Below, piece by piece: positions 3 to 54,952 of a stretch of 64,000 nt of DNA (position 1 is the first letter of the stretch; the number at the start of each line of letters is the position of its first letter). Both the position numbers and the translations under genes were made by a program. A model generated the notes under the pieces. That model was not told where the DNA came from, made no database searches, and saw nothing but the letters and a program-made list of their open reading frames with translations. The stretch lies in assembly GCA_963575745.1 (NCBI GenBank), contig CAUYUJ010019896.1:18501-82500 (forward strand). Direction: 5' to 3'. This stretch comes from Prorocentrum cordatum. Its lineage: Eukaryota; Sar; Dinophyceae; Prorocentrales; Prorocentraceae.

Positions 3-854
3 CCATTAATGACGCGTCGGCATGAGGGGGGGAGACCACTGGCGTTGAGAAACTTCCATTACATTTTCGAGTTGGTATCAGGGAAGGATTGGTATCACAC
101 GTTATCCTTTTCACGTCAGGGATGGAAAGAATTTCTGAAGCGGGCACTGGATGTTACTAACATGGAGGAGGCGTGGGGGTACTGTTACTTTAAACATGCA
201 CAACCTGCGGGATATGCTAGGGAGGAGGAGGAGAGGGAGAAGACGGAGGAGCAGCAAAGGAAGGAGGACGAGAAGATGGAGAAACGACTTGCGTACATTA
301 ATGAACATGCATCGGAGTGGAATGCGGAGCCTCGGGACTCGATACCGATGGAATTGATTGGGGACTCCGCCACAGGGGTGAATTGGATTAACGGTCTCTG
401 GGCAACATCCAATATTATCTACAAGCACATTCTTGGCGACATTCAAAATAGGCTGGAGCATATCTCTGTGTTGTATGGTATGAGGCCTCCGAGTTGGGGC
501 CACAATATGTTCAAGTGGATCTATCGAGAAGGAAACGAAAGAGCTGACAGGCTGACATGGTTGGCCAGAACCAAAAATAGTTACGTTACGTTCCATACCT
601 CACTTATTGAACATGCGAGTAAAACAAAACTAGACGGCCTCCGTGGATTCTTCGACGGAGGTCGCTCTGTGGAGGGATGTGCTGCAGGATGGTGTATAGA
701 TTTGTGTGTACACGGGACGTGGCAGTTGGTGGCGGAGGAAGCTGTCTCGCTTGATGCCTCTGCTTCTGTCATGTTTTGTGAGATGATTGCAGCACAACGG
801 CTCTGTATGGCCGTGGAGCACATTTTGGGTAGCATCTTTCATCCAAGCAGCTGA
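3..854 (+). CDS. LINE ORF2, C-terminal fragment with permuted RNase H (cut by window edge)
   Basis: The frame is open from base 3, so the start lies outside the window; the ATG at 9 is probably internal. A Lys/Glu-rich stretch (residues about 70-95 counted from 9) precedes an RNase H region in two halves. The first half has GDS (Asp at 363) followed by a W-x-x-G-x-W, then REGNERAD (Asp at 546), the counterpart of the D70 and D134 region. The second half has FFDGG (Asp at 654) and a Glu in FCEMIAA (780), the counterpart of D10 and E48. The order is the reverse of a normal RNase H and matches the two other LINEs downstream. Endonuclease and RT are not in the window. RNase H removes the RNA strand during reverse transcription. 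The family assignment is firm; intactness cannot be judged. Confidence 0.8.
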   Translation, partial: PLMTRRHEGGRPLALRNFHYIFELVSGKDWYHTLSFSRQGWKEFLKRALDVTNMEEAWGYCYFKHAQPAGYAREEEEREKTEEQQRKEDEKMEKRLAYINEHASEWNAEPRDSIPMELIGDSATGVNWINGLWATSNIIYKHILGDIQNRLEHISVLYGMRPPSWGHNMFKWIYREGNERADRLTWLARTKNSYVTFHTSLIEHASKTKLDGLRGFFDGGRSVEGCAAGWCIDLCVHGTWQLVAEEAVSLDASASVMFCEMIAAQRLCMAVEHILGSIFHPSS

Positions 855-1548: not shown

Positions 1549-4500
1549 CGACGACGGCGCCGAACACCGTTCAAGGGGATCCGACTGGGCAGCTGGAGTC
1601 TCAATCGGGCGGGGTCGGCCAACTTCAAGGGGAATGAGATCCTGAGGAGCCTCTCTATGCGTGACTGCATCTGGGGTGTTCAGGAATGCCAGAATCTTTT
1701 TGGAGGCAAATTCGATGCATATATTAGACGGTGTGGCCTTTCATATCGTGTGAGTTGTGACAGTAAGTGTGGGTTACTATTTAACAAAGAGTGGAGTACA
1801 TGTGTGCGTGAATCAATATGTCAACACGAACGGTTCTGTGTGGTGGTCTTTGGTAGCGGAAGTGCCCCCGTGATAGTTGCCTCTGCGTATCTTCCCGACC
1901 CCGGCGTGGAGAACGCCGTAGATGTGCAGTGCAGTGTGTTGGACACGCTTGAGTCAGTCATTCTCACTCTGCGCAGCCGCTGGAAGGGAGCGACTGTGTC
2001 TGTGCTGCTCGATGCCAATGTCGAGCTACCTCCATCGACTCAACTGCAGTGCTCACGCACTGGGACTATCTATGAGGCGGCGGGAAGTGCTACCAAGGAG
2101 GAGAGGAGGACATGTGAGGAGGGAGGTGCACAGCGGGTGAGGAGGGACGTACGACAACAGTTGCGCGAGCGTGTGCTTTGCTTTCTAGGGCGCCTGGGGA
2201 TGAAGGCTGCCAATTCGTTCTTGCCACGACGACTACACACATGGGAGAGTTACGGAGTATCTCGGTGGGGGACGTGTAAGAAAGTTCTCGATTACATATT
2301 TGTTCCCAGGACGTGGGAGATCGATAAGATGACGGTTGAGACGATTATGAGTAATGGGGGGAAGACAAATCGTAGTCGTCTCAGTGACCACGGCCTGCTT
2401 CAGGGGACTTTTAGTGATACAGGCGCTCAGCTGGTCAAACGTAGTATCCCGACGGCAGCTCGTGAAAAGAGTTTGGTTGGTTATAAGACAGTGAATTGGG
2501 GGGACCTCAATATGGCACGAAAGGAAATCGATCGGGTCCTGGGAGATGCCAATACTACTTGTTCTCCAAGGGACCTTGTGTCGACTACTATTCGGGCCTG
2601 TACTGAACAGGAGGAAATCAAATTCACGACTGCCACCACGGGGCGGGGGCTACCACCAATCAGACCTGCAGGACTCACGGCCTGCCAGGAGATCTTGCGA
2701 CGGAGGCCTGTGCCAGCGTCAGTGGATGTGCCGAGCTTGCGCAGACGTGCCAACGGACTTCGGAGGGAGTATCGTGCGGCGTTGGCCGCGTGGACCTCTC
2801 CTGCTTCCAGACGCAAAGAGCGAGGTGGTATCAAGCACCTCATTGTGCAGGGACGGATATCTGAGGACAGGGAGGAGTGGGTGGAGGAGATCAGAGCACA
2901 TACCAGACAGAGATATACTTCGGAAGAGGTCAGAGGACGGGATATGGAGATGATGGAGGAGTTGAGGAGGGATGCACAACAGAACTTATGTGACGGGTAC
3001 TGCACGGAGGGACTGACGATGGCGGTGGTATGCCAGGCACGGTCTCGTCTCAAGTCCAGGCGTGCCACCGGCCCAGACAGGCTGCCTTGTGAAATACTCA
3101 AGGCATTGCCGTGGGCGACTTTACGTGGCGTTGCTCGGATGTTTGACGATATATTTCGCTTGGCACGGCAGTATCCGCAGGACTGGAGGCAGATTTTGAT
3201 CGCCTTCATGCCCAAGCTGCCGAGCTTGACATCACTGACGGATGCACGGTACCTTTGCCTGCAAAACAGTCTCAGCCGTTGGTGCTCTGCCTGTGTGGTG
3301 ATCTTGGTCGAACAGTTCGTGTCTCGGGCTGGCCTCATGGGACCCCTGGGTATCTACGGCTTCCAAGAGGGACGTAAAACGGTGGAAATTGTGGGGGCCC
3401 TCAAGGCTCTGGCTCAACATGGGGACATCTGGGGGAAGGATCAGACGGTCCATATCGCTAACGCCGATATCAAACAAGCATTCGACCATTGCAGTCTTCA
3501 GAATGCCAAGCGTGCTATGTGCCATGCCAATATTCCTGCCTATCTTCAGTATGCTTTGCTCTCACCGCTGGTATGCACTACGGGATCGTTAATTGTTGAG
3601 GGTATGGCAATTCACGACATCAACTGGGACGTCTGTATACGTACGGGCGGCCCTGAGGGGCCTCTCCTCTTTAACCTTATCATATGTGCCATGTGGGGAC
3701 CAATTTTTCGGGAATGGGACAGTAAAGGAGTGGGGTATGTGCTGGAGGGCGTCTGTGGTGAGTATGAGCGACGGACAATAGTGAACCACTTTGTGTGGGC
3801 GGACAACTGCTACCTCGTCTCTGCATCCCCAACTGTGTTGGCTCAGATGATGCACGATCTAACACTACCACTACATGACTGGGGGATGAGATGGAAGGAT
3901 AGCAGCTTGTTGTACATGACATGTGGGGTTAATGCGAGAGTGGACGGAGACGGACACATACTTGCCAGCGAGGATTTGTGTGTACCTGCGTGCTCGATGT
4001 ATCAGGAATTTAGACTTCGACGTGTATGCAGTATGAAAGTATTGGGTCATGAGATTTTCTCCACGTACCTTGTGCCTGCTCATCCCGATGTTGAATATCG
4101 AATCAAGGAGGCTCGTGCGTGTTTCATAGGACAGTCGGATTTCTTTCGTAACCGAGCGGTAGCAGTCCGTGATAAATTTTGTCGTTATCAAGACAAGGTG
4201 CAGAGTATGGCGTTGTATTGTCTTGAGACATGTACGGCGGACACTTCCTCGCTTCACACACTCAATGCCTTCGAGGGATGGTGTCTGTGCCGTATGTTCC
4301 GACGGCCGAGGAGGGGGGAGGAGACTATGGCGGACTGGAACCGCCGAAGGTACCACGAGGCCAGAGAGCAGTTTCGATCTTATGGATTTGCGAGTTTGGT
4401 GCAACGATTTCTCCGTATGGTTTGGAACTCCGCTAAGGATGCTGCTGCCTTCATTACTATGTTATTTACTTCTTCTCATGAGGAAATATCTTCGACACAA

Positions 4501-5520
4501 CGTACGTGGAGAGACCACCACATGACTACGGTCGCATATGGACCACTGTGGGATAGACTCAGGACGGATGCGTCTGAGTGCCTGCGAGGGTTATTCCACT
4601 TCCAGGAGGCTTCGCAGCTGAAAAGGAGACACGTCAGCTCAGGTCGAGCTATCGGACAGAGATGCTGGTTATTTCCTTTCTGCGAATTCTACGGACTCAA
4701 GTGGTGGGAGACCTTTGTGCCGACAGATGCTGCGTACGTTCAGTTCTGCGAACACATGTGTACACGGACGATGCTGAGTTATTTCCAGAAAAGAAAAGGG
4801 TACGGTACTACAGGTGGGGCCCTGCAGGAGGTACATACTATCACACAAAACCACCTACACACATATGGGGCTCAAGAGGGCACTACGGCTTTCAATGACA
4901 AAATGGCCAAACGAATTGCGTTACAAAACATGAAGGAGGTTGAGTACGACCTCGACTCATTTGGGATCCCTGTGTACATTTCTGGGGACAGTCTTCTGGT
5001 GGTGTCGTGGCTGCAGGGTGTCTGGAGGGTGCTTAATCGTACGTATCAGGAAAGGGTCAACAGAATGATAAACCAACTGGACAATATGTGTCAGAAGTTT
5101 GGAATTAGGCCTGCCTGTCAGGGGAGGGAGGTTGTAGACCACACATTTAGGGAATGGAACACGCGTGCAGATGTACTCACTCATGAGGCCCGTGTCGGGC
5201 CACCAGTGATTCGAGATAGGATTGGGCTCCACGCCCCTCAGTTACAACAGGTGTTTCGCGTCTGTGCCATCAGAGCTGGTTTCGACGGTGGCGTTTCTTG
5301 CGACGGCGTGGGGGTCGGGTGCTGGATCGATGTTGGGCGGGTTTCGAGGATCTCAAGGCAACCACTCAGCCATGAGATTATTTGGACGGAGGTGTATAGT
5401 GCGGCATTCTCGATCGATCCAACTTCAACAGTGACTGATGCCGAGATCACGGCCGTTGAGCATACGATTGTAATCTTGCCGCGGGTTGTACATGCGTATT
5501 TCGGACAGGATGGGATGTGA
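1549..5520 (+). CDS. LINE copy A ORF2: APE endonuclease, reverse transcriptase, permuted RNase H
   Basis: The frame begins directly after the ORF1 TGA. The first ATG is at 1657, but endonuclease motif I (GSWSLN) is upstream of it, so translation probably enters from ORF1. Domains, with residues counted from 1657: endonuclease about 1-250 (GVQE, LLDANVE, LDYIF, SDHGLL); RT about 430-800, with GPDRLP, motif A ADIKQAFD (Asp 604), motif B RTGGPEGPLLF and motif C WADN (Asp 716); RNase H about 1105-1270 with halves swapped (GDS Asp 1111, REWNTRAD Asp 1172, FDGG Asp 1210, DAEITA Glu 1263). WADN replaces the usual (F/Y)ADD. The protein makes cDNA at a nicked target by target-primed reverse transcription. 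The frame is intact and potentially active, but RT activity with the DN motif is unproven. Confidence 0.9.
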   Translation, partial: RRRRRTPFKGIRLGSWSLNRAGSANFKGNEILRSLSMRDCIWGVQECQNLFGGKFDAYIRRCGLSYRVSCDSKCGLLFNKEWSTCVRESICQHERFCVVVFGSGSAPVIVASAYLPDPGVENAVDVQCSVLDTLESVILTLRSRWKGATVSVLLDANVELPPSTQLQCSRTGTIYEAAGSATKEERRTCEEGGAQRVRRDVRQQLRERVLCFLGRLGMKAANSFLPRRLHTWESYGVSRWGTCKKVLDYIFVPRTWEIDKMTVETIMSNGGKTNRSRLSDHGLLQGTFSDTGAQLVKRSIPTAAREKSLVGYKTVNWGDLNMARKEIDRVLGDANTTCSPRDLVSTTIRACTEQEEIKFTTATTGRGLPPIRPAGLTACQEILRRRPVPASVDVPSLRRRANGLRREYRAALAAWTSPASRRKERGGIKHLIVQGRISEDREEWVEEIRAHTRQRYTSEEVRGRDMEMMEELRRDAQQNLCDGYCTEGLTMAVVCQARSRLKSRRATGPDRLPCEILKALPWATLRGVARMFDDIFRLARQYPQDWRQILIAFMPKLPSLTSLTDARYLCLQNSLSRWCSACVVILVEQFVSRAGLMGPLGIYGFQEGRKTVEIVGALKALAQHGDIWGKDQTVHIANADIKQAFDHCSLQNAKRAMCHANIPAYLQYALLSPLVCTTGSLIVEGMAIHDINWDVCIRTGGPEGPLLFNLIICAMWGPIFREWDSKGVGYVLEGVCGEYERRTIVNHFVWADNCYLVSASPTVLAQMMHDLTLPLHDWGMRWKDSSLLYMTCGVNARVDGDGHILASEDLCVPACSMYQEFRLRRVCSMKVLGHEIFSTYLVPAHPDVEYRIKEARACFIGQSDFFRNRAVAVRDKFCRYQDKVQSMALYCLETCTADTSSLHTLNAFEGWCLCRMFRRPRRGEETMADWNRRRYHEAREQFRSYGFASLVQRFLRMVWNSAKDAAAFITMLFTSSHEEISSTQRTWRDHHMTTVAYGPLWDRLRTDASECLRGLFHFQEASQLKRRHVSSGRAIGQRCWLFPFCEFYGLKWWETFVPTDAAYVQFCEHMCTRTMLSYFQKRKGYGTTGGALQEVHTITQNHLHTYGAQEGTTAFNDKMAKRIALQNMKEVEYDLDSFGIPVYISGDSLLVVSWLQGVWRVLNRTYQERVNRMINQLDNMCQKFGIRPACQGREVVDHTFREWNTRADVLTHEARVGPPVIRDRIGLHAPQLQQVFRVCAIRAGFDGGVSCDGVGVGCWIDVGRVSRISRQPLSHEIIWTEVYSAAFSIDPTSTVTDAEITAVEHTIVILPRVVHAYFGQDGM

Positions 5521-6159: not shown

Positions 6160-7200
6160 ATGGAGGAGAACACAGCGGCTGGACCCTTTGGCCCCCAGCG
6201 GGCGCAACCACCTGTCTCGGGCCTGGTTGACAGCAGGCGAAGAGGCGGGGACCAGAGGAGCCGCAGCGGTGACAGAACGGATGACAAGCCCCCTGCTTGG
6301 TGGGCTGGCGCTCAGAGTGCGATGATTGATGCCCAGAGGATACAGCTGAATGAGACCCTCACTGCACGCCTTGCCCCCATGGAGGCGACACTGGCGACGC
6401 ACACGGCGTCAATTGCCTCAATGAGACGCGAGATTACTGATAATGCAGCATCCTTGTCAGCACTGAGAACAGAATTCAACGCACTTCAAACTAGATCGGA
6501 GTCAGGGTCCAGTAATGGGGTGTCTTCTCGGATGTCTGGGGCCTTTACTCGTGCGACCTGGAACCCGTCTTTCATTGAAATCAAGGGCTGGGTGACGGAC
6601 TGGAAAAATTATGAGCAACGAGGCCGCCAGATGCTGACACAATCACAAGTAAATGATATCCTCAATGAGATTGTTCTTTCTCCGATCGTAGCCAGCACTT
6701 CGGCGGAAGGCAGGATTGATACACCACGTACTCAAGAAGAAAATGATGGTCGCACATTCGGATACAGTCGCATTAGAATCTTTTTCACCATGGGGACCGA
6801 CTCCAGAATATTGTGGGATATGCGTCAAAGACTCCTCGCGGCAGTGCATAGTGGAACCAGTAAAACACTGACTGATGTGGCCAAACAGGCTACAGAGGCA
6901 CAGGGTAGTATCAAAGTCATCGTTGAGGCGGCCCCACACAAACAACCACATGTTAATTGCGCAGGTAAGTTTCAGAACATTTTCAGGCGCCATGTCAATG
7001 CAGCCCTGGGAATTACTGTTCGAGCGGAGTTGGGACCACCTGCGACACACTTCTGGGGAAAGCTCCCCAACGACACCACAAATGGCAAGGTCATCGCCGT
7101 CTTTAACCCAGCAACGAACTATGAGATTCTGCCCGCTCTGTCCGTCTTGGACCCTGCCATCAATACGGCACAGCTCCAGGCTGATCTGAGGGCTGAATGA
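6160..7200 (+). CDS. LINE copy B ORF1 protein (coiled coil plus C-terminal conserved domain)
   Basis: A 346-codon ORF; I chose the ATG at 6160. The frame is open further upstream to 6004 without another ATG. The N-terminus is charged and Arg-rich, followed by a heptad-like helical stretch (about residues 60-115, with repeated LAPMEATLATHTASI-type spacing) that looks like a trimerising coiled coil. The second half contains a conserved region ending in RAELGPP that matches the ORF1 remnant at 1078-1548. By analogy with LINE ORF1 proteins it should coat the element RNA and help strand exchange; this is inference, since no zinc knuckle or clear RRM motif is visible. It ends in TGA followed by C, with ORF2 continuing in the same frame. 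Confidence 0.7.
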   Translation: MEENTAAGPFGPQRAQPPVSGLVDSRRRGGDQRSRSGDRTDDKPPAWWAGAQSAMIDAQRIQLNETLTARLAPMEATLATHTASIASMRREITDNAASLSALRTEFNALQTRSESGSSNGVSSRMSGAFTRATWNPSFIEIKGWVTDWKNYEQRGRQMLTQSQVNDILNEIVLSPIVASTSAEGRIDTPRTQEENDGRTFGYSRIRIFFTMGTDSRILWDMRQRLLAAVHSGTSKTLTDVAKQATEAQGSIKVIVEAAPHKQPHVNCAGKFQNIFRRHVNAALGITVRAELGPPATHFWGKLPNDTTNGKVIAVFNPATNYEILPALSVLDPAINTAQLQADLRAE

Positions 7201-10200
7201 CATGAGTGGATTGCCAGAGTGGGCACATGGAATATTGAGAAAAGAGGCCCACAGTTTTCCAAAGCTATCCTGGATGCTGCCAACGACAGAGGCATTTTCC
7301 TGTTGGGACTCCAGGAGGCACAGTTTTTCACGGACAGTCGAAAGATTCTTGCTGGGGATGGGTGGCACATGGAACGCTCGTCGTGTAAGAAAGCAGCTAT
7401 TTTGTGGAAGGGCCCATGGAAGGCTCTGCTACGTGACATTGAGCGCGGACCAAGGTTCGTCATTGCATGGTTCAGGCCAGCCGCTATTGTTTGCTTGTAC
7501 TTGCCATATGCAGATGATAAGGATGAGGAGGTGAGGGAATTCAGTCAAGTGTTGGAGGAGGTGAAGAGGAGGATCAGAGAGTATCGCAGACGTCACCCCG
7601 AGCAGCCAGACATGCTTATCTTGTTTACGGATGCCAACGTTGAGATGGCTCCCAATATTATCGCCAACGGCCGTGCTATCACTGGTATGGGAGTGAAGGA
7701 AGAGGTGGAGGTACTATTCAGAGGAGGAAGGGAGGGTGTGAGGAAGAAACAATTGGAGGAGATGAGGTTCCTATTCACAGAATTTTGCAGTGTGCATCGT
7801 TTACGGCTGGCAAACACGTTTGGCCCTCGCTGTGCGACTTGGCGAGGTAGGGCAGCACCCCGAGGGGAGGCGGTGCTCGACTATATAGGCATCAGTGCTT
7901 CTGATCAATTCGACTCGGGGACTACTGCTGAGTGGATTCGGGCCCCAGGGAGATCGGCCACAATCCAGGAGATCAGCGACCACAAACTAGTTCATCTTGC
8001 GGTTGCTGTGGGAAGGCGGCGACGCTGCAAGAATAGAAAGCGAGCGGCCTTGCATCAATGGGAACCCGTGGACCCTACCGCGGCTGCCGCCAGCTTCGAC
8101 CGTGCCCTGTCACGGCAGTTTCAAGATGCAGGCTCTCGGTATCGCCCATTACAGTCTTTGGTTGAAGAGGAGGAGGAGGAGGACATCAAAAGGGACGTGA
8201 GACCCGTGAAGGAGGAGGAGGGCGAGCATAGGAGGCAGGGCAAGGGCACACTCAGCCAGATCATCGCAGATACGGCGGCAAGTATCCCTAGCCGCCAGGT
8301 GGCCGCACTTCGGGCACCTGTGAGGCCGGAACGTCTTTGGACGCTCGAACGGCTGTTACGGCGTGCTCTTTGGCCCAGAGAACTTCGATGCCAGAATGAA
8401 GTCAGGAGTCTTCGGAGATTGATCAAACCACTGCGAAAACAATATGATGCCGACATGCTCGAATACAAACACAAAGTTGAACAGCGTAAATTACGTACAC
8501 AAGCACAGGCACTTAAAGTCAAAAAGATGACGGGGGAGTGGGAACTTACTTACGATGTCGAGGCCAAACAGGTGGAAATTGGGAGGTACTTGAAAGACAG
8601 GGTGGAGGACTACGGGGCGAGGAGGGAGGTGCAGTCGATTCTGGAAGGTCTGGCATCGAAGCTCAACCAGTCCCAGTGCGTGAGCATCACCATGCATGAC
8701 ATCTTGCGAGCGAGGGCTCGCCTCAAGAGTGGGGCGGCTGGACCCGACCAAGTGACGCGGGAGATGCTGCAGCTCATCCCCTTTGCCAGCCTCAAGACAA
8801 TCCGACATCATTTCAGCCTGATCGCTAATCGTCGTCAACAGGTCCCCTCGGATTGGAAGAGGTTTCTGGTAACTCTCATCCCGAAGGCGCCGTCCATTCA
8901 GGAGCTCTCAGAGACTAGGGCGATCTGCCTCCTGAGCCTGGTCCAGAAGTGGTACAACCATGTCCTAGTCATTAAAGGGGAACAACATCTGGTGAATATC
9001 AAACACTCTCTTAACATGTATGGGTTTGTGCAGTTCAGGAAGGTTTCTGAGGTCACATCGTTTACCAAACATCTTTGCCAACATGCGGCACAATGGGGAA
9101 AAGGGGAGAAGCTCTATCTGGCCAGCCTCGATGTACTCCAGGCGTTTGACCACGTTACTATCAAGCTAGCGTTACAAAGTATGGAGAAGCTTGGTTTTGA
9201 CCCCGCTTTGATTTATGCCCTTCTTTGTCCTATGACCGAAAACACGTGTAAAGCCACCTTCGAAGGGACCCAGAATTTGGATTGGATTGGTTGGGATCGG
9301 AGTATCAGGACGGGCGGGGTGGACGGACCATTCATATTCAAAGTGGTGAGTGTGGCCTTGTGGAATGATATCGTCGGGACCTGGCCAGGGCGTGATCTGG
9401 GTTATGTTGTCGAGTCCCCCGTTCCCATGCCCACTAGATCGACGATTTCACATGCCCTCTGGGCGGACAATTTGCTGCTGTACGCTAGAGATGAACGGCA
9501 GCTCAGGACCATGGTGACTGAGCTCACTCTCCCCCTGCTCCAGGCCGGCCTCAATTGGAAACCATCCTCTCTCAAGCTCATCCCCTTTGGCGTCAATGGC
9601 TCGAATGATGTAGTTCTTCATATCCAGGCCCACACGTATAAACTTGAATGCGTTAACACTTTGGACATCCTGGGTTACAGGTTGGACAGATATTGGACAC
9701 AGCATAGCGATCTGCAGTTCAACTTGGATCGTGCCCGTGGTGCCTTCTTTGCTGACATTGAATATTATAGAAGTCATCGCATCCCGATTGAGAGACGATT
9801 CCAGCGATACCGACTCCGTATCCAGAGTAAGCTACTTTTCGCAGTTGAGGGGATGACGATTGACAACATCACGGCACAAAAAATATTCTCCTGGGAAGGA
9901 AAGCTATTAGCCATCATCGGAGGAAGGAGGAAAGGAGTGAATGAAGATTGGACGGTCTACCAAAAGAGGAGGTTCAAGTATGCTCGCGACCAGTTCGCCA
10001 ACCTTGGATTTCTGTCGGCGGTGGAACTCTTCATTCACAAGAACTGGCTCTGGGCCAAAGATGTCGCTTGCTTTGCCAGGGGCTTTGCGTGTCAAAATAT
10101 CCCGACAGCTGCGCTGCACACGGACAGAGTACATGTTGATCCGACAGCTTCGCTGCACACGTACAGTCAGGCTCACACACATGTCCATTCGTCTTTGCCT

Positions 10201-12165
10201 GTGCCCCAGTTGTCTGGCCAACGTTCTTTGGAGTCCGCGCCCAGCTTTATTCAGACAGCTACGCTGCACACTCACAGTGATGATTCAACACATGTCCATT
10301 CTTTGTTGCCTGTGCCGCAGGTTGATGACCGTTCTTTCGACACGTTGCCCAGTTGTATTCAGACAGCTACGCTGCACACGAACAGTGGAGAGCATACACA
10401 CCCTCGTTCGATGTCTTCTGTGCCGCAGGTTGAGAGAGGAAGTTCTTTCGATCAGTTGCCTTGTTATATTCCGACAGCTACGCTGCACACACACAGTACA
10501 CACTTTATTCATTCTCTTTGTCCGCCTCGTGCTTTGTCTCAGAGTGTTTCGCCTGAGCCCCAGAGACCTGCGGCTATGTTTGATAGCCGTGGGGGACTGA
10601 CGGAGCACAAAAAAGATTGTCAACGTTCTTCTGGTCGTGTGTCGTCTGCGTCCAGTATAAGAGCTTCTTTGGAGCCGAACAAAAAGGATGCTCATTGTTC
10701 TTCTGGTCGTGTGTCGTCTGCGTCCAGAATAAGAGTTCCTTTGAGTGATCCGCTGCAGGTGGCGCATCTGTTAGAGTGCGCCAGACTCCTGGGAGAAAGG
10801 AGCAGCCAGCGAGAATCCCAAGGCACTGTCAGTCCTGCGGCCACAGCCCCCCCAGTCGAAGGCGAGAGCGAACCCACGCCCGCGGCCAAGAACCGTCGCA
10901 GGCAGATTGTGGAGACCCGTCTGGCCGCCAGGGGAGAGAAGCGGTGCCCTGGCCCGAGTCTCACGGCGAGCCAGGAGGAGCTCGCCAAGCGTGTCAGACA
11001 GCCCCAGCGCCCATGCGACAAAAGAGATCGGGATGAAATATGTTCGCCGAGGGGCAGTCAAAAGAGACGGTGTATTGCTCAGGTGAATGATGACCCCATC
11101 GCTTCCGCCGATAGTCTGCCTGCTGCCCCACAGGGAAGTAAGCGACCACGGGACCTCCCCTCTTCTAGCCATGATAGTGAGCCGCGAGAGGCACGACCCT
11201 CTGGCGCAAACGTGAATGTCTTCAAACTCAACGCCTACTCTCAGGCGCGGTTGGGCATGATGCATGCGTCAGGTGACTGGGCCGCTCATCGTCGCGCGTT
11301 CGCTGCGCGCTCGAGGGATTCCCAGGCTGCTCTTCTTGGATGGCGTGGTGGTACTCAATACGTCGGCTGGAGAAAATGGGAAGATGTCTTCATTGCGGAT
11401 CAAGATGGCAACACTAAATGGTGGGAGACTATGACGTTTGGGAAAGAAGATTGGTCGATTTTCGTTGAGAAGTTGCTCAAAAGATTGCACCTGCCCGCCA
11501 TTCTTGACTATCTGGCCAAACCTAGAGTTTCGGTTGCCCGTACGGAGGAGGAGGAGACGAAAGTTAATAATGAGAGGATTGCGCGTCGCATTGCCCATAA
11601 CTTTGAAAATGAGACTATCTTTGACTATGAGGCGGATAAGATTCCATCTGAAATACTGGGTGATAGCTTGTGTGTGGTACAATGGATAAGAGGGCACTGG
11701 AAGTGCACGAACATGGGCTATAATAACACCTTGGAGGCGGCACAAAACACTCTTGATGCTATAACGGACACCTGTTTGCGAACTGCGTGCGCGGGGGCTG
11801 ACCCAATCAAACATCTTTATAGGGAGGGTAACAGTTATGCTGATGAACTCACGTGGGCTTGCAGAGCTTGCCCACACACATCGAAGAGAAACGAGTATCT
11901 TGCCCCTTTATATACTTCGAAAGTGTTAGGATTGAGAGGTTACTTCGACGGAGGAACCTCGGATATTGGGGCTGGGGGAGGCTGGTGGCTGCAGGCTTTT
12001 GTAGAACATAATAATGCTATACAGTGTCACGTGATTGCCGAGGAGGCGTTTGGCCTCGATAGGGAGTCAACCGTGACGGTCTGTGAGTTAACGGCCGCCT
12101 CGAAGCTAATTCACGCAATCTCGCAGATTGCGTCTATTATAGATAGCGTCTCACACGCTCGGTAG
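7201..12165 (+). CDS. LINE copy B ORF2: APE endonuclease, RT, repeat-rich linker, permuted RNase H
   Basis: The frame is continuous with ORF1 across TGA (7198-7200). Endonuclease motif I (GTWNIEK, from 7219) and motif II (LQE) come before the first ATG, so an AUG start would destroy the nuclease. Residues counted from 7219: endonuclease 1-270 (TDANVE, LDYIG, SDHKLVH); RT about 490-830 with GPDQVT, motif A LDVLQAFD (Asp 638), motif B RTGGVDGPFIF and motif C WADN (Asp 750); a linker of about 960-1200 with degenerate TATLHTHS-type repeats; a basic, NLS-like patch around 1230-1290; RNase H 1470-1640 with swapped halves (GDS Asp 1482, GNSYAD Asp 1542, FDGG Asp 1577, CELTAA Glu 1623). At 1655 codons it is longer than ORF2 of copy A because of the linker. 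Confidence 0.9.
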   Translation, partial: HEWIARVGTWNIEKRGPQFSKAILDAANDRGIFLLGLQEAQFFTDSRKILAGDGWHMERSSCKKAAILWKGPWKALLRDIERGPRFVIAWFRPAAIVCLYLPYADDKDEEVREFSQVLEEVKRRIREYRRRHPEQPDMLILFTDANVEMAPNIIANGRAITGMGVKEEVEVLFRGGREGVRKKQLEEMRFLFTEFCSVHRLRLANTFGPRCATWRGRAAPRGEAVLDYIGISASDQFDSGTTAEWIRAPGRSATIQEISDHKLVHLAVAVGRRRRCKNRKRAALHQWEPVDPTAAAASFDRALSRQFQDAGSRYRPLQSLVEEEEEEDIKRDVRPVKEEEGEHRRQGKGTLSQIIADTAASIPSRQVAALRAPVRPERLWTLERLLRRALWPRELRCQNEVRSLRRLIKPLRKQYDADMLEYKHKVEQRKLRTQAQALKVKKMTGEWELTYDVEAKQVEIGRYLKDRVEDYGARREVQSILEGLASKLNQSQCVSITMHDILRARARLKSGAAGPDQVTREMLQLIPFASLKTIRHHFSLIANRRQQVPSDWKRFLVTLIPKAPSIQELSETRAICLLSLVQKWYNHVLVIKGEQHLVNIKHSLNMYGFVQFRKVSEVTSFTKHLCQHAAQWGKGEKLYLASLDVLQAFDHVTIKLALQSMEKLGFDPALIYALLCPMTENTCKATFEGTQNLDWIGWDRSIRTGGVDGPFIFKVVSVALWNDIVGTWPGRDLGYVVESPVPMPTRSTISHALWADNLLLYARDERQLRTMVTELTLPLLQAGLNWKPSSLKLIPFGVNGSNDVVLHIQAHTYKLECVNTLDILGYRLDRYWTQHSDLQFNLDRARGAFFADIEYYRSHRIPIERRFQRYRLRIQSKLLFAVEGMTIDNITAQKIFSWEGKLLAIIGGRRKGVNEDWTVYQKRRFKYARDQFANLGFLSAVELFIHKNWLWAKDVACFARGFACQNIPTAALHTDRVHVDPTASLHTYSQAHTHVHSSLPVPQLSGQRSLESAPSFIQTATLHTHSDDSTHVHSLLPVPQVDDRSFDTLPSCIQTATLHTNSGEHTHPRSMSSVPQVERGSSFDQLPCYIPTATLHTHSTHFIHSLCPPRALSQSVSPEPQRPAAMFDSRGGLTEHKKDCQRSSGRVSSASSIRASLEPNKKDAHCSSGRVSSASRIRVPLSDPLQVAHLLECARLLGERSSQRESQGTVSPAATAPPVEGESEPTPAAKNRRRQIVETRLAARGEKRCPGPSLTASQEELAKRVRQPQRPCDKRDRDEICSPRGSQKRRCIAQVNDDPIASADSLPAAPQGSKRPRDLPSSSHDSEPREARPSGANVNVFKLNAYSQARLGMMHASGDWAAHRRAFAARSRDSQAALLGWRGGTQYVGWRKWEDVFIADQDGNTKWWETMTFGKEDWSIFVEKLLKRLHLPAILDYLAKPRVSVARTEEEETKVNNERIARRIAHNFENETIFDYEADKIPSEILGDSLCVVQWIRGHWKCTNMGYNNTLEAAQNTLDAITDTCLRTACAGADPIKHLYREGNSYADELTWACRACPHTSKRNEYLAPLYTSKVLGLRGYFDGGTSDIGAGGGWWLQAFVEHNNAIQCHVIAEEAFGLDRESTVTVCELTAASKLIHAISQIASIIDSVSHAR
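10108..10520 (+). repeat. In-frame degenerate minisatellite inside LINE ORF2
   Basis: The block GACAGCT(A/T/G)CGCTGCACAC recurs near 10111, 10141, 10255, 10365 and 10472. The spacing is about 107-114 bp after the first short step. It is translated as repeats around TATLHTHS ... HVHSLLPVPQ ... RSFD. It lies between the RT/thumb region and RNase H, is absent from LINE copy A, and keeps the frame. Confidence 0.75.
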
Positions 12166-34834: not shown

Positions 34835-35122
34835 TTCAGATATTTACGACAACAGAGACATTGTATCAGACGTATCCGTGGAGGATGGGACGGTGGCGTG
34901 AGTGATGAAGGCTCTGCTCTAGGTTGCTTTGTGGGGGTCTCTCTTGGGGACAACCACTGGCGACGAGTGTTCCAGGAGGCTTCTTTGCTCCCTCTGGGGG
35001 CCACTGTTACAGAAAGCGAGCTTACAGCTCGTGAACGCCTGCTGCAAGGTGTTCGGCAGATTATCTCGGATATTCTCGAGCCTCCAACCCCAAAGGGGTT
35101 GAGAGGGCGTGAGGGCCTCTAG
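34835..35122 (+). pseudogene. LINE ORF2 remnant: second half of the permuted RNase H
   Basis: The frame contains RGGWDGGVSDEG (Asp at 34889) and LPLGATVTESELTA (Glu at 35018). These align with FDGG and the Glu helix at the end of LINE copies A and B (for example QQVFRVCAIRAGFDGG against RQQRHCIRRIRGGWDGG). The GDS/AD half and everything upstream are missing. It ends with TAG at 35120-35122. It is in a different frame from the gag-like ORF. It is an ORF2 3' end kept in a non-autonomous element. Confidence 0.65.
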
Positions 35123-41310: not shown

Positions 41311-42134
41311 TTTCCCGTGATATTCGATTTCATTCCCGCTCGCCATCTTGATCTTAGCTCGATTGGGTGAATCTTTCTATCGAAAAGCACTGTGGCGGGA
41401 TCGGTCGTTTTGAGTCATCTTGATACGCGCTGACGGTTTTCTGAACATAACTCGAGCTTCAGGACAGCTACAGAGCTGGTAAGCACAGCTAATCGATGTA
41501 GAATGATTAGGCGCGTTCGCCTGTTGAATCCAGAGGTCTGAACTCGGTCTGTTAGCCGAGCTAGGTCCGCAAACCTATTCGTATTATTCGAGTCATCTTG
41601 ACAGGAACTCTCGGTTTTCTGTACTTAACTCGAGCTGTAAGACAGCTACAGAGCTGATATTTACAGAAACCGATTCAGAATCATCAGTTGCGTTTGTCTG
41701 TGAAATCCAGAGCTCTGAACTTGGTCTGCTGCCCGATCTAGAATCGCGAAACTATTCGTATTGGTCGAGATATCTCGAGAAGTGCTCTCGGTTTTCTTCA
41801 CTCAACTCGCGCTGAGGGGGGCTACAGTGCTGGTGGTCACAGCACTTGATTTGAAGACATCAGGCGCGTCCGCCTGTCGAATCCAGAGCTCGGAACTCGG
41901 TCTGCTGCCCAAATTAGGTCTGCCAAACTATTGTATTGTTCGAGTCATCCTGAGAGGTGCTGTCGGTTTTCTGCACTTAACTCGGGCTGTAGGGGGGCTG
42001 CAGTGCTGGTAATGACAGGAGTCGATTCGCAGACATCAGACGCGTCCGCCTGTCGCATTCAGAGGTCAAAAAATATTCACTATGAGTCGGAATGTTGGTA
42101 GGTGCTGTCGGTTTTCTCAACTTAACTCTCTCTA
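41311..42134 (+). repeat. Satellite higher-order unit cut by a LINE
   Basis: It enters the leader at TTTTTCCCGTGATATTCGA, runs through four monomers and stops after GTTTTCTCAACTTAA. The following CTCTCTCTAG leads directly into LINE copy C; the expected hairpin left half is missing. Confidence 0.8.
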
Positions 42135-44407
42135 GGTACCTCTGTCTGCAAAACAGTCTCAGCCGTTGGTATTCTGCTTGCGTGGTGATCTTGGTCGAAC
42201 AATTTGTGTCTCGGGCTGGCCTCATGGGACCCCTGGGCATCTACGGCTTCCAGGAGGGACGTAAGACGGTGGAAATTGTGGGGGCCCTCAAGGCTCTGGC
42301 TCAACACGGGGACATCTGGGGAAAAGATCAGACGGTCCATATCGCTAACGCCGATATCAAACAAGCGTTCGACCACTGCAGCCTTCTAAACGCCAAACGA
42401 GCTATGTGCCATGCCAATATTCCTGCCTATCTCCAGTATGCTTTGCTATCACCGCTGGTTTGCACTACGGGGTCGTTAGTTGTCGAGGGTATGGCCATTC
42501 ACGACATCAACTGGGACGTCTGCATACGGACGGGCGGCCCTGAGGGGCCTCTTCTATTTAATCTTATCATATGTGCCATGTGGGGACCTATATTTCGGGA
42601 TTGGGACAGTAGAGGTGTGGGGTATGTGCTGGAGGGCGTCTGTGGTGAGTATGAGCGACGGACAACAGTGAACCACTTTGTGTGGGCGGACAACTGCTAC
42701 CTTGTCTCTGCCTCCTCAACTGTGTTGGCTCAGGTGATGCACGATCTACCACTACCACTACATAACTGGGGGATGAGATGGAAGGATATCAGCCTGTTGT
42801 ACATGACATGTGGGGAGAATGCTAAAGTGGACGGTGACGGACATATACTTACCAGCGAGGATTTGTGTATACCTGCGTGCTCGAGATATCAGGGCTTTAG
42901 ACTTCGACGTGTTGGCAGTATGAAAGTATTGGGTCATGAGATTTTCTCCACATACTTAGTGCCTGCTCATCCCGATGTTGAATACCGCATCAGGGAGGCT
43001 CGAGCTTGTTTCATTGGACAGTCGCATTTCTTTCGTAACAGAGCGGTAGCTGTTCGTGATAAGTTTTGCCGTTATCAAGACAAGGTGCAGAGTATGGCGT
43101 TGTATTGTCTAGAGACATGTACTGCGGATGCTTCCTCGCTACACATGCTCAATGCCTTCGAGGGATGGTGTTTGTGCCGTATGTTTCGACGGCCGAGGAG
43201 AGGGGAGGAGACTATGGCGGACTGGAACCGACGACGGTACCACGAGGCCAGAGAGCAATTCCGATCTTATGGATTTGCGAGTTTGGTGCAGAGATTTCTT
43301 CGTATGGTGTGGAACTCCGCGAAGGATGCTGCTGATTTCATTTCTATGATGTGTACTGCTTCTCATGAGGAAATATCTTCGACGCAACGTACGTGGAGAG
43401 ATCACCACATGACTACGGTTGCGTATGGCCCATTGTGGGACAGACTCAGGACGGATGCGTCTGAGTGCTTGCGGGGTATGTTTCACTTCCAAGAGGCTTC
43501 GCAGCTAAAAAGGAGACATGTTAGTTCAGGTCGAGCTGTCGGCCAGAGATGCTGGCTATTTTCTTTCTGCGAATTCTACGGACTCAAATGGTGGGAGTCC
43601 TTTGTGCCGACAGATGCTGCGTATGTTCAGTTCTGCGAGCACATGTGTACACGGACGATGCTGAGTTATTTTCAGAAAAGAAAAGGGTACGGTACAACAG
43701 GTGGGGCCCCGCAGGAGGTACTTACTATCACACAAAACGACCTACACACCTATGGGGCCCAAGAGGGCACTGCGGCGTTCAACGACAAACTGGCCAAACG
43801 TATTGCGTTACAAAATATGAAGGAGGTTGAGTACGACCTCGACTCATTTGGGATCCCTGTGTATATTTCTGGGGACAGTCTTCTGGTGGTGTCTTGGCTG
43901 CAGGGTGTCTGGAGGGTGCTTAATCGTACGTATCAGGATAGGATCAACAGAATGATAAACCAACTCGACAACATGTGTCAAAGATATGGAATTAGGCCTG
44001 CCTGTCACGGGAGGGAAATTATTGACCACACATATAGGGAATGGAACACGCGTGCAGATGTACTCACTCATACGGCCCGCGTCGGGCCACCAGTGATTCG
44101 AGATAGGATAGGGCTTCACGCCCCTCAGTTACAACAGGTGTTTCGCGTTTGTGCCATCAGAGCTGGATTCGATGGTGGTGTCTCTTGCGACGGCGTGGGA
44201 GTCGGGTGCTGAATAGATGTTGGAAGGGTATCGAGACTCTCAAGGCAGCCACTCAGCCATGAGATCATTTGGACGGAGGTGTACAGTGTGGCACTCTCGA
44301 TTGATCCAACTTCAACAGTAACTGATGCCGAGGTCTCGGCCGTTGAGCATACGATTATGATCTTGCCGCGGGTTGTACAAGCGTATTTCGGACAGGATAT
44401 GATGTGA
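42134..44407 (+). pseudogene. LINE copy C ORF2 fragment with nonsense mutation in RNase H
   Basis: The frame begins mid-RT (corresponding to YLCLQNS of copy A) and keeps motif A ADIKQAFD, motif B RTGGPEGP, motif C WADN and the RNase H halves in the swapped order (GDS, then REWNTRAD, then FDGG). A TGA at 44210-44212 replaces the Trp codon (TGG) of copy A just after GVGC; the frame then continues to 44407, so the Glu-bearing helix is cut off. With no endonuclease and a truncated RT it is a dead copy. Differences from copy A are few and often synonymous, which points to a recent common source. Confidence 0.9.
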
Positions 44408-49740: not shown

Positions 49741-50740
49741 CGGTGCGGGCGGTGGACCAGCGTCGGGGTCGGGCTCTGGTGCGCAGGGGCCGGGCGACGG
49801 TGGCGCGGGCGGCGACGGCGAGGGGGGCGCGGGCGGGGGTGCGGGTCGGCTGCTCGGCGGCGGACCCAAGAGGCCAGCTCCCGAGGGGCCAGGGCCGCGG
49901 ACTCGCGGGACGGCGAGAAGGGACCAGGAGCGGTTGCAGCAGGAGCGGCTGCGGAAGGAAGAGGAGGAGCGCCTCGCAGGGAAGACAGTGAGGGCAGGGG
50001 ACGTGGAGGTGAACGTGGCTCTGGATGACCCTCACGTGAGCGAGGAGGGCACCTTGCCGGCCTGGCTCCTGGACCCCGCGCCGCTCGCCGCGGGCAGGTG
50101 CGTCGCGCGCGTCTGGCGCCCGTGCAAGGGCGGATGCGTTCTCTGGCAGTACAGCAGGAACCCGTGCAAGGGTCAGGGAGTGTTCTGTGGGAGCCACGGC
50201 AGTCCCGAACAGCGACCCTTCGGGCTGTGGGACCCGGACAAGCGCCACAGCTCCCTGACGCGCGAGTGTCCGGAACGGTACGGCTTGGCCGTAAAGGAGG
50301 CGCGGTTGCGCGAGACGCAGGCCGGCGGCGCCCCGCACGTGCCTACCCCGGCCATCGCTGCCGCTCGCAAGGCGCGCGTGCCCAGGCTCCAGCCGAAGTA
50401 TGTGCCTCTGCCGCGTGACGAGCGCCACCCTCTGCTGGCGTTCAAAGAGGCCTCGGAGGCTCTCCCGCCGTTCCCGTGCCGCCTTTGCGACCAGAACTTC
50501 GCCACGCATGCCGGCTTCATGACGCACGTGCAAAAAAAACACCACGGGTGGCCGGAGTACAGGAAGCGCCTGTTCTACCTGGCCGAGCAGTGGCCGGAGA
50601 AGGACGGAGACGTGCGGCCCGTGAGGCCCCAGGAGTGGCGGCAGTGCGTGGAGGCCTTCTCTGAGCACCTCGTCACGGGGTCTCACGACTGGCCGGCCTG
50701 CGCAGCGCCCGCCGACGTCTCGGGGGCGCCGCCGCCGCCG
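49736..50740 (+). CDS. Helitron protein, segment 2: Cys-rich module and C2H2 zinc finger
   Basis: Frame shifted relative to segment 1; the change lies within or near the (GGC)n run at about 49698-49735. After a Gly/Ala/Pro linker and an Arg/Glu helix comes a Cys-rich module C-V-A-R-V-W ... GGC ... C-x-x-x-x-x-x-CGSH (50099-50210). It resembles the module at the far C-terminus of the same element (61171-61310). A C2H2 finger, C-x2-C-x12-H-x4-H type (CRLCDQNF ... HVQKKHH, about 50477-50545), follows. Such fingers are commonly found ahead of Rep in Helitron proteins. The reading frame changes again inside a (GCC)n run at about 50729-50742. Confidence 0.55.
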
Positions 50741-50742
50741 CT

Positions 50743-53700
50743 GCCGCGCCGGACGCGCCGCGCGCCTGGTGGAAGCCGCCAGGCGCGGACGGGGCCGTGC
50801 CGCCCGCGGGCGTGGACATGCCGCCCGTGGACTTGGACGCGCTGGGCGCTGCTCCGGCGGCGTCGGACGCCGAGGGGCCCGAGCCTGGGCAGAGTCGCCG
50901 CGCCGTGCGCTCGAGGGTCGCCTGCTGCGTCTGCGCTCGTCTCCACTGGGCGGACGAGCTGCAGCGCGTGCACTTCTGGCAGCAGCCGGGCGGCGCCGGG
51001 GAGCGTTCGCTGCTCTGCGACGAGGTGCCGAAGCGGCCCGCGCGCGCCGAGCTCGAGGCGGCGAGGGGAGAGGCATCCGAGGCCGCAGGCGCGCAGGCTC
51101 AGGCCATGCGCCTGACGCAGCGGCAGCGCGCCCACGCGCTGCTGGACCCGGCACGGTGCCACGCCCGGTGGCGCTTCGTGCGCGAGGGCTTCGACGGCGT
51201 CGAGCGCCCGGGCGGCATCCCCCTCGAGGAGCTGGAGGCGTCCGCAGTGCGCGACCCTGGCCCAGACGGGAAGCTGTGGCTCTTGCACAAGAAGTGCTTC
51301 ACGATTGACAGGCGCCAGTCAGACGGAGTGCTCGTGGCCGACGCGAAGCAGAAGGTGCCCATCTGTGCAGGGTGTCACGGCGCGCTCACCAAGAGGTTGC
51401 CCACGATGCCGACCTGCGCGCTGGCCAACGACCTCTGGATCGGGCGGCTGCCACTGCCGCTGCGGAATCTCACGCTGGGCGCGAAGCTTCTGCTGCCCAT
51501 CGCGCGGGGCATCGTGCGGCGGTTCAACTGCAAGGCCGATTCTGGCGAGTGGGCTCCAATCGACCAGAAGATCAAGGCGTACGTGGGGAACTTCGTGGCG
51601 TTCCCGCAGGCGGACGGCGGTCGGCAGGTGCTGTCGCTGCCGCCGCGGGAGAGCGACCTCGTCGAGTTCGTGCAGATTGTCTTCGCGGGGTCCGACCCCG
51701 CCACCCTGCAGAAGGCGCTATTGGAGGAGCTCGGCGTGCCCCTCGCCGATTTCAGGCGCGCTTACGAGTACCTCCGCGACACGAACGAGCAGTGCGCCGC
51801 GGTGCGGTGGGACGAAGAGGCCGCTCGAAACTTTGCGGACCCCGGGGGCGACGGCGATGGCGACGGCTCCTCGCTCCTGGGCCTGCCTCGCTGTCTCGCG
51901 GCGTGCGTGGCTGTGGGGGGTAAGGGCGGCGACGCTCGCCAGGAGGGCCCGGCCGATGCCGTGCAGCCCGGCGCGGGCTCGGCCCCGCCGAAGCGGACGA
52001 GTGCAGGCGCTGCGAGCGCGGAGGGCGAAGCGAACGCGGCGGCTGACGGCGGGGGCGAGGCAGGGGGCTGGGGCGGGGGCCCCACTGGTGAGGACGCTGC
52101 GGGCGCTGGCGGGGAGGTTTCAGAGGGCGACGAGGGCAAGGCTGGTGAGGGAGGGGGCGGCGAGGGTGTCGAAGAGGGCGAGTGCTGCGCCGCAGTCGCG
52201 GACTCCGACATGCTGGCCGATCTGGACAAGCAGTGGCAGAACGTGCACCTCAGCCTCCAGAGGGCGGAGGTGATTGTGCGCGAGAAGCAGCGTGCGGAGG
52301 CACTAACGCGGCAGTGCGACGGCATGGAGAATTTCCAGGACCGAGATTCCGACCGGCGCTTGGCGGAGGCTGCGAAAGAGGCCCACAAGGCTGCGAAGCT
52401 GCTCACCAACTGCAAGAAGGAGGCACTCACGAAGAAGCTGGAGCAGACGGAGCAGAAGATTCAGGCCACGCTGCCTCCTCCGGGAGTTGCCTGGAAGAGC
52501 GCGGCCGGTGGCGGCGGCGGCGGCGGCGCGCCGGACGGGGGCGCTGAGGGCGGGGGGGCGAGGCGTGCGGTCCGGGTCGTCGTGCCCACTGGAACCGAGC
52601 CTGTCAGCATGTTCTCCCCCGGTTTCTGGAGTGCTTTCGACCCCGTCGCGTTTCCGTGCGGCGACGGCGTCTTCGGACTCGAGAGGGAGGCGAAGTTGAC
52701 GTACGACGAGTGGTGCAGGTGCCTCATGGCTCGCGAGGAGCTCGAGTACGAGGTCGCCGACGACGTCTCGGCGCCCGACGCTGCGCGGGCGCCCGCGCCC
52801 GACGCCGCGTGGGCGCCCGCCGCGTCTGACTCGCCCGTGCCGCGCTGGCGTCGCCACGCTGACCTGCTCACGGCCCAGTATTGCCTCTGGCGCAGGAAGG
52901 CTATCATACAGTCGGCCAGGTTATTCGTGCGCGAGCAGCGCCTGGGGGAGTACATCGCGGACCTCGCCGCACTGACGCCAGAGGAGCTAGCGCAGGTCGT
53001 GGCCGTGCTCGGAAGGGGGGCGGGCATCAAGGAGGCCCTGGGCCACGAGGGCGTGCCCCGGAACGTCAAGAGCGCGCTGCGCAGCATGCTGCTCAGCAAC
53101 CGTGATGTTGTCGGCTCCGACGCGCACCGGACCACGCTGCGGCACATCAGTACCAGCTACACCCGGCTCTTCGGTCCGCCCCTGGTGTTCACGACGCCGA
53201 ACATCGCGGACACTCGGAACCTGATGGTGTCCCTGATGTACGAGGGCGCCTCCGTGCAGCAATGGCGGCTGCTGGAGGAGACTGCTCCCGTGATGCCTTC
53301 GACGCGGGACATGCTGCGGCGGGTGGCCGCTGACCCGGTGTCGCAGGCCATGGTCACGAACCTCATGCTGGAACTGTTCCTGGAGCATGTCGTCGGCGTC
53401 ACGCCGCAGCGCGGGGCCACGGGCGTCTCCGACGGCGTGGCCGCCACGGGGGCGTGTGGAGCGTTCGGGCTCGTCCGCGCGTTCTTCGGACCCGTGGGGT
53501 CGCAGGGGCGCGGCGGCATCCATCCGCACAACCACCTGTGGCGCCTGCACCCGATGACTGGCGCGTTCCTCGCGAGGTTGCGCGCGGGGGACGTCGAAGG
53601 CCTCGAGGAGCGTTTGAGGAAGTGGAGGGAGGCCGTGCTCGCCACGGTCGGCAGCGTGCAGTTCGACGCGGCGGAGGAGGTGGGCCGGCAGCTGGGCTTG

Positions 53701-54950
53701 GACGGGCCGGACCGGCTGCCGCCGCTTCCGCTCGGCCCGCGGGGTCGACGACTCGCGTTCGCGGACGGGAAGCGAGAGGAGAGCGACCTCCAATTGAAGC
53801 ACAATGCCATCGCTGGCGCCTCGCGTCGTCAGCTCGGGAAGTTTTGCAAGACGGCGTACGAAGAGGGCCGTCGCTCCGTCCGTGCTGACAACAAATTGTC
53901 CACAGAAGAGCTGCGGAATCAGGTTGCGGCCATGATGAACGTCGATCTCGTGGAGGAGCGGGCGACGCTGCAGCAGCAACAGCCCGCAATAGAGGGTCCG
54001 CTCCGGCAGCGCCCGTTCGCGCCGCTGGCAGATCCAGAGCCCGATCCCCATGAGCAGCGGGCACAGTACCCAGCGGTATTTGGCGAGCCTCTCACGGGTG
54101 CGCACGCGACGCTGCAGCCGCAGTACCGCCGCAAGCCTGCGTACCGCGTGCGCGCGGACGGCACCGCGGCGATGCACTTTGCGGAGGGCTCGAGGGAGGA
54201 GGCGCACACCTGGGCGCGCTGCTTCGCGCGGGACGCACGCAAGTGTATCATCCGGAGCCACCTTCACAGGTGCGGTCCCACTTGCTGGAAGCACAAGACG
54301 AATGACGACGTGCCTCAGCACTGCAAGGTGTGCCGGCTCGGCTTCTACCACGAGTACGAGACTGCGGTCTACAGCCACCCGTCCAGGAAGCTTCCGGCCG
54401 CCTCCTTCGTCTGGCGGCGCTTGCGCAAAGGAAAGGACTTGGTCTTGCCCGATGGGGCGCGGATCGAGTACGGCCCACCGCAGGAGGACCAGCGGAACCC
54501 GCCGGGCGAACGCCTGGTCCTCGACGAACAGTGCACGTACGGCCCGTGGCCGCACCGCTGCAACCGGTACGGCAGAGCTGGTCGCGTCGACGTGGTGCGG
54601 TACCACCCGTACCATGGGAGCACGAACCCTGTGGGCCAGGTGTGTCTGCGGAGCAACCTGGACGTCCAGTGTCTGGACCGCGTGGTGCTCGACCTGCCTG
54701 GCGACGCCAGCGTCGGGGGTTCGCGCGACGGCGACCCGGTCGTGCCGCCGCCTCCGGAGCTTGTTGCGTTCGCCGAGCTTTTCGCCGACGCGTCGGAAGC
54801 GCTGGGTGGCGTCGAGACTGGCGGCACTGGTGGCGACGAGGGCACCGGGCAGAGCGGAGGTTCCACGGGCTCGGGGGTGTCGGCCGCAACGCAGGGCGGG
54901 GGCGGGGCGGGCCAGAGGGCGGCGCGGGCGGCTGCGGCGGGGGGGGGGGC
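50743..54950 (+). CDS. Helitron protein, segment 3: DUF6570-like region and Rep (HUH) domain
   Basis: Open in this frame from about 50701 to 55065. In order: Cys pairs CCVC (about 50928) and CAGC (about 51366); ALANDLWIGRLPLPL (from 51415), matching the DUF6570 type found before Rep in Helitrons; an acidic/Gly-rich linker; FGPPLVFTTPN (about 53173); DPVSQ ... ELFLEHVVGV (about 53335-53400); GPVGSQGRGGIHPHNHLW, with HPHNH (53521-53535) in place of the usual HUH metal-binding motif; CGPTCWKHK ... CKVCRLGF (about 54271-54345); and LRSNLDVQ (about 54647-54670). Rep nicks and ligates single-stranded DNA in rolling-circle transposition. The catalytic tyrosines are in the next segment. Confidence 0.8.
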
Positions 54951-54952
54951 GC

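Follow-up and report, generated by a model that had tools for sequence, protein, structure and literature searches.

A probable natural circular permutant of archaeal-type RNase H at the C-terminus of LINE ORF2 in the dinoflagellate Prorocentrum cordatum

Long interspersed nuclear elements (LINEs) of the dinoflagellate Prorocentrum cordatum were studied in a stretch of 64,000 nucleotides (the window: contig CAUYUJ010019896.1 of assembly GCA_963575745.1, positions 18,501 to 82,500). Relying on sequence comparison and structure prediction, we consider it very likely that their second open reading frame (ORF2) ends in a naturally occurring, circularly permuted RNase H of archaeal type (type 1), which would keep the five-stranded fold and be active in the degradation of RNA/complementary DNA (cDNA) hybrids. 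With the catalytic residues numbered as in E. coli RNase HI, the C-terminal order in LINE copies A, B and C and in the fragment F is GDS (D70), RE.N..AD (the R and D134), FDGG (D10) and a Glu motif (E48), the last one being DAEIT, CELTA, DAEVS and CEMIA in A, B, C and F, respectively. The half of the domain containing D70 thus precedes the half containing D10 in all four LINE copies of the window which hold both halves. Archaeal-type RNase H of type 1 has the normal half order, and we treat the swapped order as a variant feature. The elements and the parts of the domain are the following:

7201 to 12165, plus strand: ORF2 of LINE copy B, with APE-like endonuclease, reverse transcriptase (RT), low-complexity insert and permuted RNase H (open reading frame; RVT_1, E 1.9e-8)
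11623 to 11889, plus strand: D70 half of copy B, with strand 4 (GDS), helices, strand 5 and the last helix (REGNSYAD) (family hidden Markov model, HMM)
11890 to 11919, plus strand: linker of copy B between the two HMM matches, from the old C-terminus to the old N-terminus (HMM)
11920 to 12162, plus strand: D10 half of copy B, with strands 1-3 (FDGG), helix A (CELTAA) and the end of ORF2 (HMM; AlphaFold2)
11662 to 11664, plus strand: Asp of copy B equivalent to D70 (GDS; D1488 in stop-to-stop numbering)
11821 to 11823, plus strand: Arg of copy B at the place of H124, the archaeal-type mark
11842 to 11844, plus strand: Asp of copy B equivalent to D134 (GNSYAD; D1548 stop-to-stop)
11947 to 11949, plus strand: Asp of copy B equivalent to D10 (FDGG; D1583 stop-to-stop)
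12085 to 12087, plus strand: Glu of copy B equivalent to E48 (CELTAA; E1629 stop-to-stop)
1549 to 5520, plus strand: ORF2 of LINE copy A (open reading frame; RVT_1, E 4.2e-7)
4948 to 5220, plus strand: D70 half of copy A (HMM; AlphaFold2)
5257 to 5517, plus strand: D10 half of copy A (HMM; AlphaFold2)
3 to 854, plus strand: fragment F, C-terminal part of a third LINE lineage (D70 half 336-593, D10 half 630-848; HMM)
42086 to 44404, plus strand: LINE copy C, 5'-truncated (D70 half 43835-44107, D10 half 44144-44401; HMM)
34874 to 35080, plus strand: solitary D10 half, a LINE 3' fragment (HMM)

The swapped order had been described in an earlier note made from the letters of this DNA. We could locate the motif codons of copy B at 11662-12087, and both the motifs and the half-specific HMMs confirmed the same order in F, A and C, the D10 half of copy C being interrupted by an in-frame TGA (44210-44212). 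The nucleotide positions given in the note for F (363, 546, 654, 780) and A (4987, 5170, 5284, 5443) are exact; for copy B its motifs and their order stand, but its residue numbers are 6 below the stop-to-stop ones listed above. With one HMM for each half, the D70 match came ahead of the D10 match in A, B, C and F as well as at all eight genome loci L009-L016, among which L009 is the window copy. One D70 half and one D10 half each were found in A, B, C (where the D10 half is split by the stop), F, L009-L013, L015 and L016, and L014 has an additional D10 half about 1.3 kb downstream. This is the arrangement of a circular permutant: the old termini are joined, the new ones lie elsewhere and each part is present once. 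Over the RNase H region, A, B and F share no more than 24-31% identity with one another and still have all motifs and their order in common, so this arrangement is not due to chance.

Putting the halves back in the usual order in silico gave a family profile collinear with archaeal-type RNase H, over template positions 2-131 and 122 columns (E 2.2e-11; all E-values refer to single comparisons). This alignment pairs FDGG with FDGL, TDAE with NVAE, GDS with GDS and NTRAD with NKEAD, so that the four catalytic acids, the presence of which had already been noted, are all in register. The global score was 68.0 after re-ordering versus 55.1 in the native order; in the control with shuffled D10 columns the mean was 49.9 (standard deviation, SD, 4.1; highest 66.0), and none of the 200 shuffles was as good as 68.0. 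Copy C was excluded from the D10 part of this test. Re-ordering five single sequences did not lengthen their match in Pfam scans, and with a tandem-doubled template no alignment ran from one half into the other. Because re-ordering brought no gain there, it is mainly through divergence that Pfam misses the domain.

At the structural level, the AlphaFold2 model of the copy A domain (window 4801-5517; mean predicted local distance difference test, pLDDT, 82.7; predicted template modelling score, pTM, 0.76) contains the expected RNase H elements in permuted order, with block means of pLDDT of 77-97 over residues 51-230. For the D10 half of copy B, AlphaFold2 predicted strands at 220-232, 237-249 and 252-265 and a helix at 271-299, with block means of 87-90 over 211-290. 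Sequential structure aligners run on the AlphaFold2 domain matched the two halves apart and ranked other folds first. The halves are predicted to form one compact domain, which bears out, as a prediction, the joint packing needed for the permuted fold suggested earlier: it is seen in the copy A model, and after re-ordering the profile alignment spans the whole domain. Sequence alone cannot separate packing within one chain from packing between two, and the linker has just about 20 residues; the halves of two ORF2 chains might then complement each other in a domain-swapped dimer, with an active site only in the dimer. We hold this arrangement to be very improbable, as a single chain was packed confidently by AlphaFold2 and engineered permutants joined at their natural termini are often viable.

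The type of RNase H was deduced from profiles. The domain has the four catalytic acids D-E-D-D and the R replacing H which characterize archaeal-type RNase H of type 1. Our archaeal-type profile was built from 65 of 80 fetched loci together with S. tokodaii RNase HI, 15 loci having been dropped by a motif filter including R..N..AD. Against the family, it gave an E of 3.2e-9 for the D70 half, a match which this filter may favour, and a second alignment to the FDGG strand in the correct register (P 0.017). Taken alone, the D70 half matched with an E of 1.2e-10 and the D10 half, whose profile leaves out copy C, with a score of 17.4 (P 0.019), compared with a mean of 10.9 (SD 2.0) for 300 column shuffles, of which one was as good. 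Similarity to the archaeal type therefore appears strongly significant for the D70 half and modestly so for the D10 half. When the profile was made from nine bacterial RNase HI sequences, the D70 half was matched (5.5e-4) and the D10 half was not; since the profiles differ in size, the contrast between archaeal and bacterial profiles is a lead for the archaeal type, not a tree. In Pfam, RVT_3 was found under its cut-off in the cut-out first piece of B (E 0.009 and 0.035) and in F, at profile positions 64-119 of 123 (E 0.009-0.06), while full-length B, A and C gave no RVT_3 match and the D10 half was not seen by Pfam at all. In structural alignments the D70 half is 23-29% identical to archaeal-type RNase H1 structures. 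Archaeal-like RNases H of LINEs are described, in passages of PMC4640811 and PMC5348765, as having R for H and the residue series D-E-D-R-D, and the R of REWN aligns at the place of this R.

If a first half were hidden upstream, the order would only seem permuted, and the earlier note had seen none N-terminal to GDS. Our results agree with it. No [YFVILT]DG motif occurs between the RT and GDS in seven sequences (for B within residues 1341-1486 and for F within 119 residues), and a profile of this region from seven sequences matched RNase H neither of the archaeal type (best P 0.3) nor of the bacterial type (best P 0.55). A six-frame scan of the window with HMMs of the D10 half and of archaeal-type and bacterial RNase H revealed, at E 0.1, no first half beyond those listed above, and upstream of GDS AlphaFold2 predicted helices only, with low confidence. 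Nor did the HMM find a further D70 half after the stop of copy B ORF2. As a speculation, the conserved helix upstream of GDS (e.g., NDRLAKRLA in P0003) might be a remnant of helix A from a lost first copy.

Protein searches yielded eight relatives (P0001-P0008). Five of them, P0001-P0005, have all four acids in permuted order; P0007, from Prorocentrum cordatum, has this order with Tyr for D70, the partial P0008 presents AD, FDGG and E in that succession, and P0006 (EukProt, Pyramimonas) stops before the RNase H domain. The latter, labelled Pyramimonas sp., is 69% identical to the RT-thumb region of copy A, and its presence in Pyramimonas would reflect either contamination or transfer. The nine other alignment rows are 24-33% identical to the copy B segment. 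Most of RE.N..AD and FDGG lies in invariant or near-invariant columns, as do the Glu and, within GDS, the G and the S; P0007 and the partial P0008 keep the GDS Asp out of this group.

Comparing copies A and C, the ratio of non-synonymous to synonymous substitution rates (dN/dS) is 0.10 for the RT and 0.19 for RNase H, with 0.27 in the D70 half and 0.155 in the D10 half. We also fetched 20 divergent genome copies and analysed 19 of them for selection against copy B, dropping L101 (624 bases). Sixteen of the 19 are without stops, and the four acids are kept in 17 (L098 has Val for D70 and L102 has Arg for D10). For the seven copies with a dS of at least 0.40, dN/dS to copy B is 0.11-0.19 over the domain and 0.07-0.26 in the D10 half; for the remaining twelve, closer copies, in which changes after insertion weigh more, it is 0.15-0.41 and 0.15-0.66. 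Judging from these ratios, both halves are under purifying selection.

Two explanations deny the domain its nuclease function. In one of them, the halves are relics, two RNase H pieces of a former tandem pair with neither joint fold nor nuclease; their order fits duplication followed by deletion and the D10 half is highly diverged. The retention of the four acids in 17 of 19 genome copies and five of eight relatives, the low domain dN/dS in both groups of copies and the confident joint AlphaFold2 model make this very unlikely. The other assumes a permuted, folded domain that binds the hybrid and lacks nuclease activity, for which there is a precedent in Ty3/Gypsy RNase H domains with lost catalytic residues (reported in passages of PMC5348765). 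In the reported dead domains these residues were lost, but here the catalytic acids rank with the best conserved positions, and we consider such a silent domain very unlikely.

The abundance of the family was evaluated in the whole genome (4,128,499,153 bases in 21,875 contigs). A search with the copy B domain matched at all 150 scored places, out of 5,455 first-look candidates, with many copies on different contigs. Counted by eye, 18 of these 150 places fall within open frames 1,654-1,658 codons long, and this suggests that the LINE group amplified recently. With PF00075, ordinary RNase H was found at 150 scored places (of 2,607 candidates), many collinear with nearly the whole profile. Among 30 such loci fetched, 24 have the normal order [TS]DG, DS, N..AD; in the other six the full motif series was not found, probably from the choice of frame. 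Since other retroelements of this genome show the normal order, the permutation belongs to this LINE group and not to the genome or its assembly. An artefact of assembly or reading frame, in favour of which we found no point, has a negligible probability given the many copies on different contigs, the relatives from independent collections (ena, jgi, ncbi) and the long uninterrupted frames. Two of the PF00075 loci, L117 and L132, present, as seen by eye, a LINE-like frame with RNase H in an unusual place, between endonuclease and RT.

Together, a natural circular permutant with nuclease activity could have arisen and could work as follows. The domain would have been duplicated in tandem, and the outer halves then lost. 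The break in the chain would lie between helix A and strand 4, and about 20 residues (133-151 in the copy A model) would link the former C-terminus to the former N-terminus. The domain would then begin with the part from strand 4 to the last helix and end with strands 1-3 and helix A. It would nevertheless adopt the five-stranded fold usual for RNase H, presumably bringing together in the active site D10, E48, D70, D134 and the R for H124. LINEs integrate by target-primed reverse transcription, and it is on this basis that we assign the RNA-removal step: the domain would degrade the template RNA of the RNA/cDNA hybrid after first-strand synthesis.

Concerning the rest of the elements, RVT_1 is above the Pfam cut-off in copies A and B, and the endonuclease, which has no Pfam call, was recognized in copy B by eye from the motifs TDANVE and SDH; ORF2 combines endonuclease and RT as in APE-type LINEs. 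The RT active-site box, usually F/YADD in LINEs, is WADN in all five RT sequences inspected (A from residue 747, B from 751, C from 197, P0001 and P0002), the second Asp being replaced by Asn. In copies A and B an ORF1-like frame lies upstream in the same frame as ORF2, separated from it by one TGA followed by C (1546-1548 and 7198-7200), and stop-codon readthrough or re-initiation is possible between them. Between RT and RNase H (about 10080-11220), copy B ORF2 contains a low-complexity insert of about 380 residues, which includes His-Thr-rich repeats and has no equivalent seen in A and C. From 12225 to 44754, dozens of places carry short stretches of about 25-170 bases that match the two ends of the copy C region; they are possibly SINE-like (short interspersed nuclear element) families sharing the LINE tail. 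Finally, a Helitron-like element occupies 50665-61801, one frame carrying DUF6570 and Helitron_like_N and another a PIF1 helicase together with a UCH (ubiquitin hydrolase) domain.

Beyond what the earlier note contained, the domain proves to be of archaeal type, to belong to a large family and to be under selection in both of its halves. The note knew of no permuted RNase H in LINEs, and we likewise found no description of one in retroelements in the open-access literature, covered largely at the level of titles and abstracts, where exact phrases had no match. The term 'permut' does not occur in the main text of the 2014 classification of the RNase H-like superfamily (PMC3985635), and neither 'permut' nor 'dinoflagellate' in that of PMC4640811 and PMC5348765. 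On the present sequences and models, it is probable that this is the first natural, catalytically active RNase H described with a circular permutation, carried by LINEs that are abundant and likely to be amplifying still, and kept across lineages of only 24-31% identity in one dinoflagellate genome. If this is true, a retroelement has turned the order of a catalytic domain around and yet retained the domain, and a mobile element bearing such a natural permutant would demonstrate that RNase H stays functional when its halves are re-joined. The LINE set would offer natural sequences for testing the tolerance of the RNase H fold to new termini. As annotation misses the domain, RNase H in protist LINEs may be undercounted.

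Several known systems can be compared with these LINEs. Among AlphaFold clusters, CIRPIN retrieved one pair of RNase H-like domains related by circular permutation (PMC12667903), so that permutation is also found within this class; in the relevant passages neither a protein nor a host or retroelement is named. Retroelements of this genome with canonical RNase H (e.g., L117 and L131) have it in RT-holding frames too, but in the normal order. Plant L1 and oomycete Utopia LINEs likewise carry an RNase H of the D-E-D-R-D type inside the LINE polyprotein, which the passages of PMC4640811 and PMC5348765 describe in that order, unlike the permuted dinoflagellate LINEs. With RNase H1 of archaeal type (2ehg/3aly, S. 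tokodaii RNase HI; 3u3g/4h8k, LC11-RNase H1; 4e19, H. salinarum RNase H1) the LINE domain shares GDS..LV....G.Y/W.V, RE.N..AD, the R for H124 and the four acids. It differs from this enzyme by the opposite order of its halves and by additional residues, which precede strand 5 and in the A/P0003 lineage also follow strand 2.
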